A stretch of 64,000 nt of DNA, taken from assembly GCA_003134685.1 (NCBI GenBank), contig PLCA01000013.1, positions 1-64,000 on the forward strand, read 5' to 3'. This stretch comes from Gemmatimonadota bacterium. Its GTDB lineage: Bacteria; Gemmatimonadota; Gemmatimonadetes; Gemmatimonadales; Gemmatimonadaceae. The notes under the pieces were generated by a model. The model saw nothing but the letters and a program-made list of their open reading frames with translations, was not told the DNA's origin and searched no databases. Positions 44,826-63,443 of this stretch are shown in pieces. The number at the start of each line of letters is the position of its first letter. Position 1 is the first letter of the stretch. The translations under genes and the position numbers were made by a program.

Positions 44826-44874
44826 GTGAGCATGGCCTCCGTCGTTGAACCGCGAATGGCACAGATGTAAGTTA

Positions 44875-44910
44875 GGCGGAAATGCGGAAACGCATTTCCG
44901 CCTTTTTCTT
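44875..44910 (+). terminator. Rho-independent terminator after the prepilin-like gene
   Basis: Perfect 12-bp stem GGCGGAAATGCG / CGCATTTCCGCC with a GAAA loop, then TTTTTCTTTC. It separates the prepilin-like gene from the two-component genes 28 bp further on. Confidence 0.92.
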
Positions 44911-44937: not shown

Positions 44938-45630
44938 ATGAAAATCCTGGTAATCGAAGACGATCCCACCGTTGGACAGTTCGTCAAACGGGGCTTTGAG
45001 GAGCAGCGCTGGGGGGTGGATCTGGTCGCCAACGGGGACGAAGGGGAAGCGCGAGCCATATCCGAGGAGTACGACGTCGTCGTCCTCGACATGCGGCTGC
45101 CCGGCAAGTCCGGCGCGCAGGTGCTGCACGATCTTCGGGCGCGAGGCTTCGACCGGCCAGTGTTGATCCTGACCGCGCAGGACGCCATCGACTCGAAGGT
45201 CGAGACTCTCCGGGCCGGCGCGGACGACTACGTCACCAAGCCATTCGCGTTCGAGGAGCTGCTTGCCCGCGTGGAAGCGCTGTCACGCCGGCCGCGCGGG
45301 CGCATTACACCAGTGCTGAAGGCGGCTGACCTCACGCTCAACCTGGATACGAGAGAGGTGGCGCGCGGTGGACATGCGATCGAGCTGACGCCCAAGGAAT
45401 ACACCGTGCTCGAGTATCTCATGCGCCACGCCGGCCGAGTCATGAGCCGAACGCTCATCACCGAGTACGCCTGGGGCTATCACTTCGATCCGGGCACCAA
45501 CATCGTCGACGTGGTGATCAACCACCTGCGCAAGAAGATCGACGCAACCAGCGCAAGAAAGCTCATACATACGATCCGCGGCGTAGGGTACGTGATTCGC
45601 GAAGAGAGCGTCGCGGGCAAGGTCGGCTAG
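44938..45630 (+). CDS. PhoB/OmpR-family response regulator
   Basis: 230 aa from ATG 44938. The receiver domain has VIEDDPTVGQF, phospho-Asp in VVVLDMRLPGKSG and Lys in YVTKPFAFEEL. The winged-helix DNA-binding domain reads IELTPKEYTVLEYLMRHAGRVMSRTLI and HTIRGVGYVIREE. The histidine kinase gene begins 6 bp downstream, so the two are a pair. The target genes are not evident, but the adjacent TonB cluster is a candidate. Confidence 0.95.
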   Translation: MKILVIEDDPTVGQFVKRGFEEQRWGVDLVANGDEGEARAISEEYDVVVLDMRLPGKSGAQVLHDLRARGFDRPVLILTAQDAIDSKVETLRAGADDYVTKPFAFEELLARVEALSRRPRGRITPVLKAADLTLNLDTREVARGGHAIELTPKEYTVLEYLMRHAGRVMSRTLITEYAWGYHFDPGTNIVDVVINHLRKKIDATSARKLIHTIRGVGYVIREESVAGKVG

Positions 45631-57347: not shown

Positions 57348-58661
57348 ATGATCTACAAGAATCTCAGACGAATCCCGCTGACAACCTGGATCATGATATC
57401 GATGGTCGTCGGCGTGCTCATCGGCACGTTCGCGCCAGCGTTCGCGATGAAGCTCAGTCCCGTGTCGACCGTGTTCCTGCGGATGATCAAGTCGATCATC
57501 GTCCCCCTCATTTTCGGAACGCTGGTCGTTGGAATCGCCGGGCATGGGGACGACATGAAGCGCGTGGGACGCCTCGCGCTCAAGTCGATCATCTACTTCG
57601 AGATCGTGACCACCCTGGCGCTCGTCATCGGGCTAGCCGCGGTCAACCTCGTACGTCCGGGGGTGGGTGTCACGCTCGCTGCGTCCGCCGAAGCCGGCAA
57701 GGAGCTCGCTCACAACACGCAGACAGGGACCGGATTCCTCGAGCATCTCGTCCCCACGAGCTTCTTCGACGCCGCGGCAAAGAACGAGATTCTGCAGGTG
57801 GTCTTCTTCGCCGTGATCTTCGCGGTGGCGTTGTCCAAGGTTCAGGGTCGCTCAAAGGAGATCGTTCTCGCCGGGTGCGAGGGTCTCGCCGACGTCATGT
57901 TCAAGTTTACGATGATCGTGATGCGCTTCGCCCCGTTCGGCATCGGCGCCGCGATCGCCGTGACGGTCGGACAGAGCGGGCTTGGCGTCCTCTTCAACCT
58001 GGGCAAGCTGATACTCACCCTGTACGGAGCCCTGCTCGTCTTCTTCCTCGCGGTGCTGTTGCCGGTGGCCGTGCTCTTCCGGGTGCCGCTCCGTCGATTC
58101 ATTCGCGCGGTGAGATCGCCCGCGCTCATAGCGTTCTCGACGACGTCTTCGGAGGCCGCTCTTCCACTAGCGATGCAGTCGATGGAGGCGATCGGAGTCC
58201 CGCGGCGCATAGTGGCGTTCGTGATGCCGACCGGATACTCCTTCAATCTCGACGGATCTACGCTCTACCTCGCTGTGGCGTCGGTTTTCGTGGCACAAGC
58301 GGCCGGTGTTCCGATGACGCTGACGACTCAGCTCTTCATGATGCTGACGCTCATGATCACCAGCAAAGGCGTCGCGGCAGTCCCACGCGCGTCGCTCGTG
58401 ATTCTTTCCGGAACTCTCACGACATTCGGGTTGCCGCTCGAGGGTGTGGCAATCATTCTGGGGGTCGATGCGCTGATGGACATGGCGCGCACCAGCACGA
58501 ATCTCATCGGCAACTGTCTGGCGACAGTCGTGATGGCTAGGTGGGAAGGTGAATTCGCCGAGCCGCAGCCCGAAGTGCTCCTCGCACAGGAAGGACTTCT
58601 TCCGATCGAAGCTGTGCCCCCGGCACCGCGGACTTCAGGCGCTGCTCCAACCGCTTTCTGA
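57348..58661 (+). CDS. Dicarboxylate/amino acid:cation symporter (DAACS/GltP family)
   Basis: 437 aa from ATG 57348. Eight-helix SDF fold with the hairpin motif FSTTSSEAALPLAMQ (equivalent of the serine-rich loop), MPTGYSFNLDGSTLYLAVASVFVAQA, and DALMDMARTSTNLIGNCLATVV with the substrate-binding Asp and Asn. It carries glutamate/aspartate or C4-dicarboxylates with H+ or Na+. Its 3' end overlaps the convergent kinase gene by 125 bp. Confidence 0.93.
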   Translation: MIYKNLRRIPLTTWIMISMVVGVLIGTFAPAFAMKLSPVSTVFLRMIKSIIVPLIFGTLVVGIAGHGDDMKRVGRLALKSIIYFEIVTTLALVIGLAAVNLVRPGVGVTLAASAEAGKELAHNTQTGTGFLEHLVPTSFFDAAAKNEILQVVFFAVIFAVALSKVQGRSKEIVLAGCEGLADVMFKFTMIVMRFAPFGIGAAIAVTVGQSGLGVLFNLGKLILTLYGALLVFFLAVLLPVAVLFRVPLRRFIRAVRSPALIAFSTTSSEAALPLAMQSMEAIGVPRRIVAFVMPTGYSFNLDGSTLYLAVASVFVAQAAGVPMTLTTQLFMMLTLMITSKGVAAVPRASLVILSGTLTTFGLPLEGVAIILGVDALMDMARTSTNLIGNCLATVVMARWEGEFAEPQPEVLLAQEGLLPIEAVPPAPRTSGAAPTAF

Positions 58662-59469
58662 GCGGCGAGCTGGCGTCCATCAGGCCACCGCTAAACGCCA
58701 CCGCAACCGCCGCACGCTCGTCCGTAAATAAATGGCGCGCCAGTGAGCGGATGTGTAGCACCAGCTCTTCGGCCGCCAGCGCGAGCAGGGCGTTGGCGCG
58801 GAGATCGCCCGCTGTGGCCGCGCCGAAAACTACCGGGACGAGTGAAGCAAACGTACGGGCATCGGCGGCCGCTGCCCACGGAATGAGATCCTCGACATCC
58901 TCGCATTGGGTGGCGGCCAGAATGGGGAAGAGAAGGGCAGTCGGCGGCTCGCGCCCGTCACTCGACGCCGCGACAATGCTCAGCGCACGCCTTCCGATCC
59001 AGCCACCGCTCCCCTCGTCGCCGAACGCAGGACCCCAGCCGCCACAGCGAACGATCTCTCCAGCCGGGCTCCGGCCGTAAGCGATGGAGCCGGTTCCCAC
59101 GACCAGGAGAATTCCCGGACGCTCGTCGAACGCATCATACATCGCGATCAGGCCGTCGGAATCGATGATGACTTCTTCCGCGAGCTCCTTCGAGTCGAGG
59201 GCGGAATGTAGCGCGCGACGCTCTTCGTCCCGACCGGTTCCGGCGACGCCGCAGTAAAGAACGCGAGGAAACACGGCGCCCGGCTGCGCGATCTCCGCGA
59301 GCGCGCGGGTTACAAGTTCCGCGATGACGTCGGCCGAGCGCTGAGCCTGTCCCGGCGTGACAGCTGACTTGGGCCCTTCGAGCGTGGCGAGAACCTCGCC
59401 CTCCGTCGTGCCAACGAGGACGCGGGTCTTCGATCCGCCTCCGTCAACGCCCACAACTATTTCATTCAA
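58537..59469 (-). CDS. BadF/BadG-family amino-sugar kinase (NagK/MurK-like)
   Basis: 310 aa. ASKHA-fold kinase: phosphate-1 loop VGVDGGGSKTRVLVG, phosphate-2 VGTGSIAYGR, and GWGPAFGDEGSGGWIGRRAL, which is the hallmark of N-acetylglucosamine/N-acetylmuramic acid kinases. It phosphorylates an incoming amino sugar. ATG overlaps the stop of the upstream symporter (ATGA), so uptake and phosphorylation are coupled. The C-terminal 41 codons overlap the DAACS gene on the other strand. Confidence 0.92.
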   Translation of the reverse strand: MNEIVVGVDGGGSKTRVLVGTTEGEVLATLEGPKSAVTPGQAQRSADVIAELVTRALAEIAQPGAVFPRVLYCGVAGTGRDEERRALHSALDSKELAEEVIIDSDGLIAMYDAFDERPGILLVVGTGSIAYGRSPAGEIVRCGGWGPAFGDEGSGGWIGRRALSIVAASSDGREPPTALLFPILAATQCEDVEDLIPWAAAADARTFASLVPVVFGAATAGDLRANALLALAAEELVLHIRSLARHLFTDERAAVAVAFSGGLMDASSPLRKRLEQRLKSAVPGAQLRSEEVLPVRGALRAAARRIHLPT

Positions 59470-60986
59470 TTCCAGCGATCTCCATCAGTCGGCGCGGGGT
59501 GTGTGAACGATGAAAGGATAGCGACTCCCATAGTGAACGACGTTCCGATCAGCACATACCAGGGAAATGCGATGTGCGAGATTGGTGTGAGTGCGTCTTT
59601 CATCGACGGAAATGTCAGCATCATCGGCTTCGCGAAGACCACGAAGCTCATCGCAATGATTCCTACCGCCATGCCGAGGATTGCATCACGCTGGATCGCC
59701 CGTCTCCACAACATGCCCAGAAAGAAGCCGCCGAGCAACGCACCGTATGTGAACGAGGCAATTGAGAGCGCGATGACGACGACCGGCGTGCCCTGCTGCT
59801 TGTACAGGAGCGCCGCGATCAAAAGTACAGCTCCCCAAAAAAGCGTAAACATCTTCGCCATCTTGAGCGTGCGTGGGTCCTCCGCAGTGCGGCCAGAGAG
59901 CGGCAAGTAGATGTCGTGGGTGGTTGATGCCGCCAGCGAATTCATCGCGCCGGAATGCGCGCTCATCGTCGCCGCGAGGACGGCCGCGACGATCAACCCT
60001 CGCAATCCCGCCGGCATCGAGTCGACGACGAAGGTGGGGAATATCGAGTCGGGAACTGCGAATGTCCGCGCCTGATAGAACGCGTACAAGCCGATTCCGA
60101 TAATAAGAAAGAGCGAAAACTGAAAGAAAACGGCGATGCCGCTGCCGATGAGCGCTTTGCGTGAGTCCTTGAGGCTCGAGGCCGCGAGCAACCGCTGCAC
60201 GATCACCTGGTCGGCACCGTGTGATGCCATCGAGAGGAACGCCCCGCCGATCAATCCAGCGAAGAGTGTGTACGGCTTGTCGAAGCCGAAGTAGACGTCG
60301 ATGACCCGCAACTTCCCGGCTGCGTGAGCCTGACCCAGAATCGCGCCCCATCCGCCGCTCACGCCCTTACCCAGCAGGTACACGGCCGAGAGCCCGCCGA
60401 GGAGATAGACGCTCGTCTGCAGCACGTCGGTCCACACAACGGCGCGCATGCCGCCGTGATAGGTGTAGATCAATGTCAGCGCGCCCAAAACCAGGATAGC
60501 TACGGGCATCACGTACTGCTGCGGCACCGACGGCCCGAGTATCAACGCGATCGGAATCGCGGTGGCGAACACGCGCACCGAGTCGGCAAACGCGCGGGTG
60601 ACCAGGAAGACGATCGAGGCAAAACGGCGCGTCCCGACGCCGAATCGCTTCTCGAGCAGGGCGTAGGCTGTGACGAGATCGCCCTGATAGTACCGTGGCA
60701 GCAGTGTATAGGCGACGACGATGCGCCCCAGCAGATAGCCCGCCGCGATCTGGAGGAAGCCGAGATTCGTGGTGTAGGCGAGGCCGGGGATGCTGATGAA
60801 GGTCAGCGCGCTCGTCTCCGTGGCCACAACCGAGAAGAGAACCGCCCACCACGGAATTGCGTGTCCCGCTACGAAGTAGTCTTTGGAGTCCTTCTGGTTG
60901 CGCCCCAGCCAAACGCCGAGAAGGGTGGTGCCGATCAGGTACGCGGCCAGTACAATAAAATCGAGGGCGGTGAAATTAGTCTTCAT
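59466..60986 (-). CDS. Sodium:solute symporter (SSS family), probably for an amino sugar
   Basis: 506 aa, about thirteen helices. TALDFIVLAAYLIGTTLLGVWLGRNQKDSKDYFVAGHAIPWWAVLFSVVATETSALTFISIPG is the SSS N-terminus; YTYHGGMRAVVWTDVLQTSVYLLGG and SAHSGAMNSLAASTTHDIY (sodium site region) follow. It overlaps the kinase gene as ATGA, so the substrate is likely N-acetylglucosamine or N-acetylmuramic acid. The ribosome site and start codon lie in a long perfect hairpin. Confidence 0.93.
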   Translation of the reverse strand: MKTNFTALDFIVLAAYLIGTTLLGVWLGRNQKDSKDYFVAGHAIPWWAVLFSVVATETSALTFISIPGLAYTTNLGFLQIAAGYLLGRIVVAYTLLPRYYQGDLVTAYALLEKRFGVGTRRFASIVFLVTRAFADSVRVFATAIPIALILGPSVPQQYVMPVAILVLGALTLIYTYHGGMRAVVWTDVLQTSVYLLGGLSAVYLLGKGVSGGWGAILGQAHAAGKLRVIDVYFGFDKPYTLFAGLIGGAFLSMASHGADQVIVQRLLAASSLKDSRKALIGSGIAVFFQFSLFLIIGIGLYAFYQARTFAVPDSIFPTFVVDSMPAGLRGLIVAAVLAATMSAHSGAMNSLAASTTHDIYLPLSGRTAEDPRTLKMAKMFTLFWGAVLLIAALLYKQQGTPVVVIALSIASFTYGALLGGFFLGMLWRRAIQRDAILGMAVGIIAMSFVVFAKPMMLTFPSMKDALTPISHIAFPWYVLIGTSFTMGVAILSSFTHPAPTDGDRWN

Positions 60987-61009
60987 TTCACCGCCCTCGA
61001 TTTGTACTG
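60948..61009 (-). promoter_or_regulatory. Long hairpin covering the ribosome site and start codon of the symporter
   Basis: Perfect 19-bp arms (60958-60976 and 60985-61003) with an 8-nt loop. They extend by another 8 bp (CAGTACAA) beyond a 4-nt bulge. On the minus-strand mRNA the 5' arm contains the GAGGGCGG ribosome site and the first bases of the ATG (60986), and the 3' arm is the first codons. A U-rich stretch follows the stem, so it could also end erpA transcripts. Confidence 0.8.
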
Positions 61010-61025
61010 CTGACCAGCAGCGACG

Positions 61026-61382
61026 CTACGCAGAGAATGAACTTCCGCAGCCGCACCCGCCGGTCGAATTCGGATTCTTGAACGTGAACCCCGAGCCTTG
61101 CATCGAGGTGACGTAGTCGATCGTGACTCCGTTCAGGTACTGCGCCGAGAACGGGTCGACGAACACGTTGAAGCCTTCGCGCGGGACGATGACGTCATCG
61201 TCAGCGGCGCGATCTTCAATGACCAGGCTGTACTTGAAGCCACTGCAGCCGCCCGGCTGCACGCTCACGCGAAGCCCACCCTGCTCGGCGGTGACGCCCT
61301 CGACGTCCATAAACTTCTTGACCTCGACGCCGGCGTTAGGCGTGACGTTGAGATCGATTTCAGGTTGCGACGAAACTGACAT
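61026..61382 (-). CDS. erpA: HesB/IscA/ErpA-type iron-sulfur cluster insertion protein
   Basis: 118 aa. The three conserved Cys are present: GGCSGFKYSLVIED and the C-terminal GGCGCGSSF. The A-type carrier fold reads VTPNAGVEVKKFM ... FVDPFSAQYLNGVTIDYV. It receives and delivers Fe-S clusters. It lies between two symporter genes with no iron-related neighbours, so it seems a housekeeping gene. 35-bp tandem repeats lie in its leader region. Confidence 0.95.
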   Translation of the reverse strand: MSVSSQPEIDLNVTPNAGVEVKKFMDVEGVTAEQGGLRVSVQPGGCSGFKYSLVIEDRAADDDVIVPREGFNVFVDPFSAQYLNGVTIDYVTSMQGSGFTFKNPNSTGGCGCGSSFSA

Positions 61383-61406
61383 TTATCCTCCGGTACTACA
61401 TGAAAT

Positions 61407-61511
61407 TTAGCATCAAACCTTCTACTCGTGGTAGAGTGTCGTTAGCATGGAACCGTCTACTCGTGGTAGAGTGTCGCTAGCATCAAACCGTCTACTCGTG
61501 GTAATGCGCCG
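61407..61511. repeat. Three tandem 35-bp repeats with internal dyad
   Basis: Units start at 61407, 61442 and 61477 (TTAGCATCAAACC-type), with only a few differences. A fourth decayed unit begins at the stop codon of the symporter at 61512. Each unit contains CTACTCGTGGTAG, a small dyad. They are directly abutted without spacers, so they are not CRISPR. They lie 25 bp upstream of the erpA start. Confidence 0.88.
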
Positions 61512-63350
61512 TTAGGCAGGTACGCCTACCCCGGGTAGTGCTGCTGGCTCCTCCCGGAACGACCGTGCTATCCAACTGAACGCAACAACGGCGATGGCCA
61601 GCATCACCAGGCCTGGAACGAGGTTGCCCAGCACCACCTTGCCGATCCCGAACAGTGTTGAATACACTGCCACGATCCCGGCGATCCAGTTGGTCCAGGC
61701 AAGCGCGCCGCCGGGAATGCTTTCCCGCCCGAACCCCGCCCGTTCCGACACCACGGCCCAACCAGGGCCCCCAGGCCGCACCCGCCGATAGAACGCTTCC
61801 AGCACGCGATCGGGCTCTGGTTTGGTGGCAAAGGTCACCCCTAACCAGACGACTGTACTCACCGCTACGGTAACGAGCATTACCCAGGCATCGCCCCGGA
61901 GGTCGCCGGCGGGGAACCGCGGCTTGATCAGGTTGATCGCGGTGACCGAGACGACGAAGGAGGCGATCATGGCGCTGATCTCGCTCCAGGCGTTAATCCG
62001 CCACCAGTACCAGCGGAGAATCAGCACGAGTCCAGTGCCCGACCCGAGCGCGAGCAGAAATTTCCAGGCGCCTTCGATCGTTCCGAGGTAGTGGGTTACC
62101 ACCGCGGAGGCCAGGAAGAGGAATATCGTGGCCCAACGCGAAATCGCCACATAGTGCTTTTCGGTGGCAGTCCGGTTGAGGAACCGTTTGTAGAAATCGT
62201 TGACAAGATAGGAAGCACCCCAATTGAGCTGGGTGCCGACCGTCGACATATAGGCCGCGGCGAAGCCCGCCATCATGAAGCCGCGCCAGGGCGTCGGTAG
62301 CAGATCCACGAAAGCCTGAACGTATGCGGCTTCGTGATCGTGGGTCGGGCCAATTCCGGCTGGATAGAGCAGCACCGTGCAAAGTCCTGTGATGATCCAG
62401 GGCCACGGCCTGATCGCGTAATGGGCGACATTGAAGAACAGCGTGGCGAGAACGCCATCGCGCTCCGTTTTGGCCGAAAAGATTCGCTGCGCCACGTAAC
62501 CGCCGCCACCGGGCTCAGCCCCGGGATACCAGGCCGCCCACCATTGCACCGAAAGGAAAACCGCAAGCGCCAGGAGCGGCATCCATGCGTAAGCCTCGAT
62601 GCCGCTGGAAGTCATTTTCACTGGAAGCACTGAGAGCGCGGCGTCGGCGCTCCCGAAGTGGGTCGTCAGGCCCGCCTTCAGCTTGTCCATTCCGCCTACA
62701 GCCCGCACCGAGTACACGGCGAGAACTATCACCGCGCTCATCTTGATGACGAACTGGACGAGATCGGTCCAGAGCACGGCCCACATCCCCGCGCCTGCCG
62801 AATACGCAACGGTGATCACGAAGCAGATCCCAACCGCGATGACTTCTCCGGGAATATTGCGTCCGAGGACGCTGACGTCGCGGAGGCCCAGCGAGATCGT
62901 GAGGATCTTGATCATCGCCTTGGTCACCCAGCCCAGGATTATCAGGTTGATGGGGATGGCGAGGTAGAGCGCCCGGAACCCGCGCAGCACCGCCGCGGGC
63001 CGGCCGCTGTAACGGATCTCCGCAAACTCGACGTCGGTCATGACGTGCGCTCTCCGCCACAGGCGGGCAAAGAAGAACACGGTGAGCATTCCGCTCATCA
63101 GCATGTTCCACCAGAGCCAGTTTCCGGCGACTCCGTGCGCGGAGACGAGACCTGTCACGACGAGTGGTGTATCAGCCGCGAACGTCGTCGCGACCATGGA
63201 TGCGCCCGCCAGCCACCAGGTCACCTGCCGACCGGAAAGGAAGTACTCGTTGAGGCTCTCTCCTCCGCGTTTTGTGAAGTAGAGTCCAATGCCCACCGAG
63301 AGCATGAAGTAGGCAGCGACAATCGCCCAATCGATTGCGGTTAGCGCCAT
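61512..63350 (-). CDS. Sodium:solute symporter (SSS family), long form
   Basis: 612 aa from ATG 63350; a start 27 bp upstream is less likely. About fourteen helices. Landmarks: IDWAIVAAYFMLSVGIGLYFTKRGGESLNEYFLSGRQVTWWLAGASMVATTFAADTPL, VAYSAGAGMWAVLWTDLVQFVIKM, and AAYMSTVGTQLNWGASYLVNDFY in the sodium-site region. It differs from the 506-aa symporter and so has another substrate. Divergent from namZ, with which it may share an operator region. Confidence 0.92.
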   Translation of the reverse strand: MALTAIDWAIVAAYFMLSVGIGLYFTKRGGESLNEYFLSGRQVTWWLAGASMVATTFAADTPLVVTGLVSAHGVAGNWLWWNMLMSGMLTVFFFARLWRRAHVMTDVEFAEIRYSGRPAAVLRGFRALYLAIPINLIILGWVTKAMIKILTISLGLRDVSVLGRNIPGEVIAVGICFVITVAYSAGAGMWAVLWTDLVQFVIKMSAVIVLAVYSVRAVGGMDKLKAGLTTHFGSADAALSVLPVKMTSSGIEAYAWMPLLALAVFLSVQWWAAWYPGAEPGGGGYVAQRIFSAKTERDGVLATLFFNVAHYAIRPWPWIITGLCTVLLYPAGIGPTHDHEAAYVQAFVDLLPTPWRGFMMAGFAAAYMSTVGTQLNWGASYLVNDFYKRFLNRTATEKHYVAISRWATIFLFLASAVVTHYLGTIEGAWKFLLALGSGTGLVLILRWYWWRINAWSEISAMIASFVVSVTAINLIKPRFPAGDLRGDAWVMLVTVAVSTVVWLGVTFATKPEPDRVLEAFYRRVRPGGPGWAVVSERAGFGRESIPGGALAWTNWIAGIVAVYSTLFGIGKVVLGNLVPGLVMLAIAVVAFSWIARSFREEPAALPGVGVPA

Positions 63351-63443
63351 TGGTCGTGAGTTGAGGTGGCCACGCAAGACGCTTGCGTTTGCATCGCTAG
63401 CTCGCGTCGGTCAACGTAAAAGGACGCAAAAGAGTATCATTCG

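Follow-up and report, generated by a model that had tools for sequence, protein, structure and literature searches.

A conserved hairpin between erpA and a sodium:solute symporter gene of Gemmatimonadaceae carries features of a terminator merged with the start of the next gene

In a stretch of 64,000 nt from a Gemmatimonadota genome (contig PLCA01000013.1, hereafter the window), we identified a hairpin at the junction of an erpA-like gene and a gene encoding a symporter of the SSS family that, at the level of sequence, combines the features of an intrinsic terminator with those of a hairpin sequestering a ribosome binding site (RBS). The hairpin is real and conserved, and it is most likely a terminator merged with the start of the next gene. 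Our preferred explanation, which we consider probable, is that it constitutes the intrinsic (Rho-independent) terminator of erpA, merged with the RBS, the start codon and codons 4-10 of the symporter gene (Table 1).

Table 1 Positions of the hairpin, its parts and the surrounding genes in the window.
Feature	Position	Strand	Basis or remark
Hairpin including the outer, lineage-specific extension	60948..61009	-	Folding
5′ arm of the stem	60985..61003	-	Contains SD-like GAGGGCGGTGA and start-codon bases 1-2; conserved in 23 species
3′ arm of the stem	60958..60976	-	End of codon 4 to codon 10 of the symporter gene
U-tract UUUUAUUG, codons 9-12, overlapping the stem base	60953..60960	-	Approximate predicted 3′ end of erpA RNA after termination
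Spacer, erpA stop to stem	61004..61025	-	Length locked, sequence free
Symporter start codon ATG	60984..60986	-	Bases 1-2 paired in the stem, third base opens the loop
erpA-like A-type Fe-S carrier	61026..61382	-	ORF; PF01521 (Fe-S_biosyn), TIGR00049
SSS-family sodium:solute symporter, 5′ end forming the 3′ half of the hairpin	59466..60986	-	ORF; PF00474, TIGR00813
BadF/NagK-type kinase, next after the symporter	58537..59469	-	ORF and profile matches

The two arms of the stem are 19 nt long, 100% complementary and separated by a loop of 8 nt, which bears out the observation in an earlier note on this DNA that the first codons of the symporter gene are the exact complement of its own ribosome-site region over 19 bp. 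On the minus strand, the hairpin region reads CAGTACAAATCGAGGGCGGTGAAATGAAGACTAATTTCACCGCCCTCGATTTTATTGTACTG. Arms of 27 bp, as given in that note, are a slight overestimate: both the perfect 19 bp and the outer 8-bp part (CAGTACAA/TTGTACTG) exist, but the outer part re-uses two A's of the inner stem, so that no more than 25 bp are possible simultaneously (19+6, or 17+8 with a bulge). This outer extension was found only in the nearest relatives of the window. The 61-nt RNA of the hairpin was predicted to fold with −38.7 kcal/mol (z = −10.2 against shuffles), and a z of −8.3 was obtained within a context of 101 nt. Complementarity of this kind had been judged very unlikely to arise by chance, and indeed no other perfect inverted repeat in a 373-kb sample of the genome (GC 62%) is as long as this stem, compared with a single inverted repeat of 11 bp in one block-shuffled control. 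Other strong inverted repeats of the genome include classic A/T-flanked terminators located 7-50 nt past genes, and with simple ORF calls no further repeat spanning a gene start was found in the 373-kb sample. A hairpin at 44874-44903, placed inside a gene by a crude ORF call, was rejected as it turned out to be an intergenic terminator before a response regulator gene starting at 44939. A repeated element (REP/MITE) was rejected as well, because the hairpin is present in a single copy in the genome. Single palindromes with the core GAGGGCGGTG/CACCGCCCTC were observed in other genera and at unrelated places (L170-L172, L181-L184), several of them flanked by CGAC/GTCG and most without a T-tract.

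The upstream gene reaches an ErpA equivalog score of 110.6, just below the cut-off of 117, and the name erpA is therefore a close and not a formal call. The ATG at 60986 opens an ORF of 506 aa. A true start further downstream is unlikely because the motif LDxxVLxxYL right past this ATG is kept in nearly all of ~100 homologues; between the erpA stop and the ATG, there is no in-frame ATG, GTG or TTG. We also considered a read-through fusion of ErpA and the symporter (39 nt = 13 codons, in frame in genera g1 and g6), which was rejected because the frame is broken in genus g37 and in the relative L033, and an internal promoter yielding a short-leader or leaderless symporter mRNA, for which a scan with the sigma-70 consensus gave no hit in 60700-61600, other promoter types being possible. 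Just upstream of erpA, at 61408-61515, we noticed three head-to-tail copies of 38 nt with a spacing of 35 nt, 87-89% identical and sharing the core TCTACTCGTGGTAGA, which are perhaps a regulator-binding array. The region 58537-63377 contains a second SSS symporter gene upstream of erpA in addition to the NagK/BadF-type kinase gene after the first symporter gene, and the ORF from 63504, beside the second symporter gene, presumably resembles DUF1343/NamZ-like proteins; possibly, this region is a cluster for the uptake of amino sugars that surrounds erpA.

The reading as a terminator is the best supported one. The stem-loop is GC-rich and directly followed by UUUUAUU, the U-rich sequence that had been pointed out before. 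In species with the hairpin, the ten bases after CTCGA contain on average 6.6 T versus 3.0 T in 80 homologues without it; 7-8 T are present in most of genus g1, and the tract is weak in genus g37, with 4-5 T. The codons are unusual, since the ratio of TTT to TTC at the Phe codons 10 and 11 is 22:1, compared with 94:410 at the remaining Phe codons among the first 400; Phe codon 5, inside the stem, is always TTC. A simple terminator scan under its default rule (loop of up to 8, a stem cap, at least 5 T in the 8 positions after the stem) reported nothing at the hairpin because the stem swallows the first U's. Among relatives with the erpA-symporter pair but without the hairpin, nearly all gaps of at least 61 nt contain a terminator-like hairpin; about half of these gaps pass a strict stem-plus-U filter, in others, such as L109, L143, L117 and L148, the stem is visible by eye but the T threshold of the filter is not reached, and one or two (L064, L123) are doubtful. 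In gaps of less than 50 nt, no terminator-like hairpin was found, and in two such relatives the symporter start overlaps the erpA stop. As the longer gaps nearly all hold terminator-like hairpins, the conserved hairpin appears to take the place of the erpA terminator. From the U-tract, the substitute hairpins in relatives and the position 19-26 nt past the erpA stop, we infer that the hairpin terminates erpA transcripts, which the earlier note had offered as one option. In two relatives (L107, L109), the symporter gene has TTC ACC GCC CTC GAC, no left arm matches it and the gap contains a terminator-like hairpin, an arrangement that possibly resembles the state before capture.

According to this explanation, the hairpin would form when RNA polymerase leaves erpA, and most transcripts would end there. 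The same fold would bury the Shine-Dalgarno (SD) sequence and the AUG of the symporter gene, so that the truncated message should be protected from ribosomes that initiate on it and fall off its 3′ end. Only transcripts that escape would then yield symporter, either through read-through by the polymerase or through a ribosome that engages the nascent start while codons 5-9 have yet to emerge and thereby opens the start and blocks the terminator together; we put forward both routes as conjecture. A refinement, which we regard as possible though rather doubtful, is that termination and translation are decided jointly by a ribosome that either follows the polymerase up to the erpA stop or loads at the symporter start on the nascent RNA. 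It is favored by the spacer, as the distance from the erpA stop to the CGAGGG core is 26 nt in 17 of the 18 parsed species of g1 and g6 and 25 nt in the other one (L008, outside these 18, has the same total gap) and 19 nt in g37, with a sequence near saturation (32% identity versus 26% expected). A constant spacing may serve to hold the ribosome terminating at erpA away from the stem, or it may allow partial interference, but it may also have other causes. The efficiency of tR2 in E. coli climbs with the distance from stop codon to stem up to ~27-30 nt (PMC4824070), and at galE/galT termination is influenced by initiation at the next gene (PMC9239205). When initiation took place just upstream of a terminator, however, the efficiency of the terminator fell by only ~10% (PMC4824070).

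A less likely alternative is a lock on translation only, in which the hairpin hides the ribosome site, either to limit the amount of the transporter or to tie its synthesis to translation of erpA, and the U-rich codons merely favor initiation. The SD sequence and the start codon are indeed base-paired within a stable, conserved stem, with covariation at the start-codon pair, and the predicted energy of the start region is −25 to −36 kcal/mol with the hairpin versus −0.2 to −23 kcal/mol in the 80 homologues, two ranges without overlap. The left arm resembles an extended SD sequence and the 16S rRNA of the genome ends in the usual GGATCACCTCCTT, so that the 3′ arm also resembles an anti-SD sequence. 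The sequestration of the start described in the earlier note agrees with the predicted fold and with the covariation that includes the start codon, and by extension the hairpin would repress translation of the symporter. However, a lock alone does not account for a U-tract that lies exactly past the stem, is made of unusual codons and is absent in homologues without the hairpin. Moreover, because the erpA stop lies 19-26 nt before the stem core, the erpA ribosome does not travel through it, which does not fit translational coupling by unfolding. The proposed opening by a factor or ligand found no backing: no Rfam family came near its gathering score, the 26 nt upstream lack sequence conservation, and neither a conserved aptamer nor an alternative fold was detected upstream, where the erpA coding sequence lies beyond the 26-nt spacer.

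Folding combined with conservation in relatives, a check suggested in the earlier note, gave a stable fold whose core is kept in 23 Gemmatimonadaceae species of three genera, a count that overstates independence as the species share ancestry. The core always lies directly after erpA and was found in 15 of 15 species of the window genus with the symporter start covered, and in four species in each of two further genera, while homologues elsewhere in the family with a different upstream gene, or with erpA at other spacings, lack it. Relatives that carry names assign the window to Gemmatimonadaceae. On the symporter tree, the hairpin species do not form a single clade, and the backbone lacks resolution between one origin with losses and several origins. 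In the relative G004, an assembly break falls at the hairpin, and erpA and the symporter gene are on separate contigs that both carry it (L050, at the end of C111; L013, on C59).

Codons 5-8 (TTC ACC GCC CTC) are the same in all 22 of the 22 species compared, whereas a codon is invariant at 1 of 86 other positions with a conserved residue, at which the commonest codon has a mean share of 0.63. Except for one U-U, changes in the stem core are limited to C to U where the partner is G and A to G where the partner is U; they keep pairing in the sense RNA only and are substitutions of the RNA type. Base 1 of the start codon is paired with base 3 of codon 4; this pair is A-U in genomes with AUG and U-A in those with UUG (genus g6 and, at a different place on the tree, L011), and genus g37 keeps the start pairing through a one-base shift (GTGAATGA/TCATTCAC). 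Covariation of the stem exceeded all shuffles (0/500 in one test, 0/5000 in another), counts that are not probabilities because the species are related; it is confined to the inner stem, and the 11-pair core hardly varies. Judged from these sequences, the hairpin core is under selection. A DNA operator binding a dimeric regulator over the symporter start would match the long conserved dyad symmetry but appears very unlikely, since the G-U pairs kept in the sense strand are mismatches in DNA symmetry, the T-tract is on one side only, and arms of at least 14 bp with near-perfect complementarity are unusual for operators. Template switching can yield long perfect inverted repeats and the outer extension is confined to the nearest relatives, but a functionless inverted duplication is hardly credible given stem covariation and a core kept across three genera beside a spacer near saturation.

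Returning to the merged terminator, several known systems are comparable in part. Intrinsic terminators share the GC-rich stem, the U-tract and the short distance after a stop codon, but here the stem comprises the SD sequence and start codon of the next gene along with conserved codons of that gene, and it is far longer than most. Terminators in the first 100 bp of the coding region work in E. coli (PMC4824070), and both the tR2 constructs (PMC4824070) and the 3′ ends in E. coli 5′ UTRs and ORFs (PMC7815308) place a terminator near a start codon, which is free and upstream of the stem there and inside the stem here. A terminator just after an active start codon worked and upstream expression was halved, for which the authors blame non-stop translation (PMC4824070); given this effect of a free start, a start codon inside the stem would avoid non-stop translation. 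The galE/galT hairpin (PMC9239205) likewise sits at a cistron junction, marks the 3′ end of the upstream message and is linked to initiation of the next gene, but it is Rho-dependent and lies ~130 nt after the galE stop, past the galT start. Hairpins sequestering the start of coupled genes (PMC12548453) also hide a downstream RBS after a closely spaced upstream gene; those are opened by upstream ribosomes, whereas here none pass through the stem and a terminator-like U-tract follows. Riboswitch and attenuator platforms acting on both transcription and translation (e.g., Bc1, PMC11218506) join a terminator with RBS/AUG access in one RNA, but no aptamer or competing fold was found here. In the openly licensed literature, we came across no report of a terminator stem that is conserved and contains the start codon of the next gene, which is weak evidence of absence.

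As a tentative proposal, the start codon might lie inside the stem so that terminated erpA messages are not translated off their 3′ end, a self-locking terminator in which read-through and symporter translation would be won only together, by a ribosome that, ahead of the emergence of the 3′ arm, engages the nascent start or trails closely to the erpA stop 26 nt upstream. If this holds true, symporter output would report transcription-translation coupling at erpA. If the merged terminator is confirmed, ~45 nt would serve at once as terminator stem, U-tract, SD sequence, start codon and first codons of a gene for a conserved membrane protein, with selection apparent at their synonymous sites. 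Members of the family have this hairpin, an ordinary terminator or neither at the junction of the two genes, a natural comparison that could be used to ask how bacteria protect truncated messages from ribosomes and whether a ribosome that loads early can beat an intrinsic terminator.
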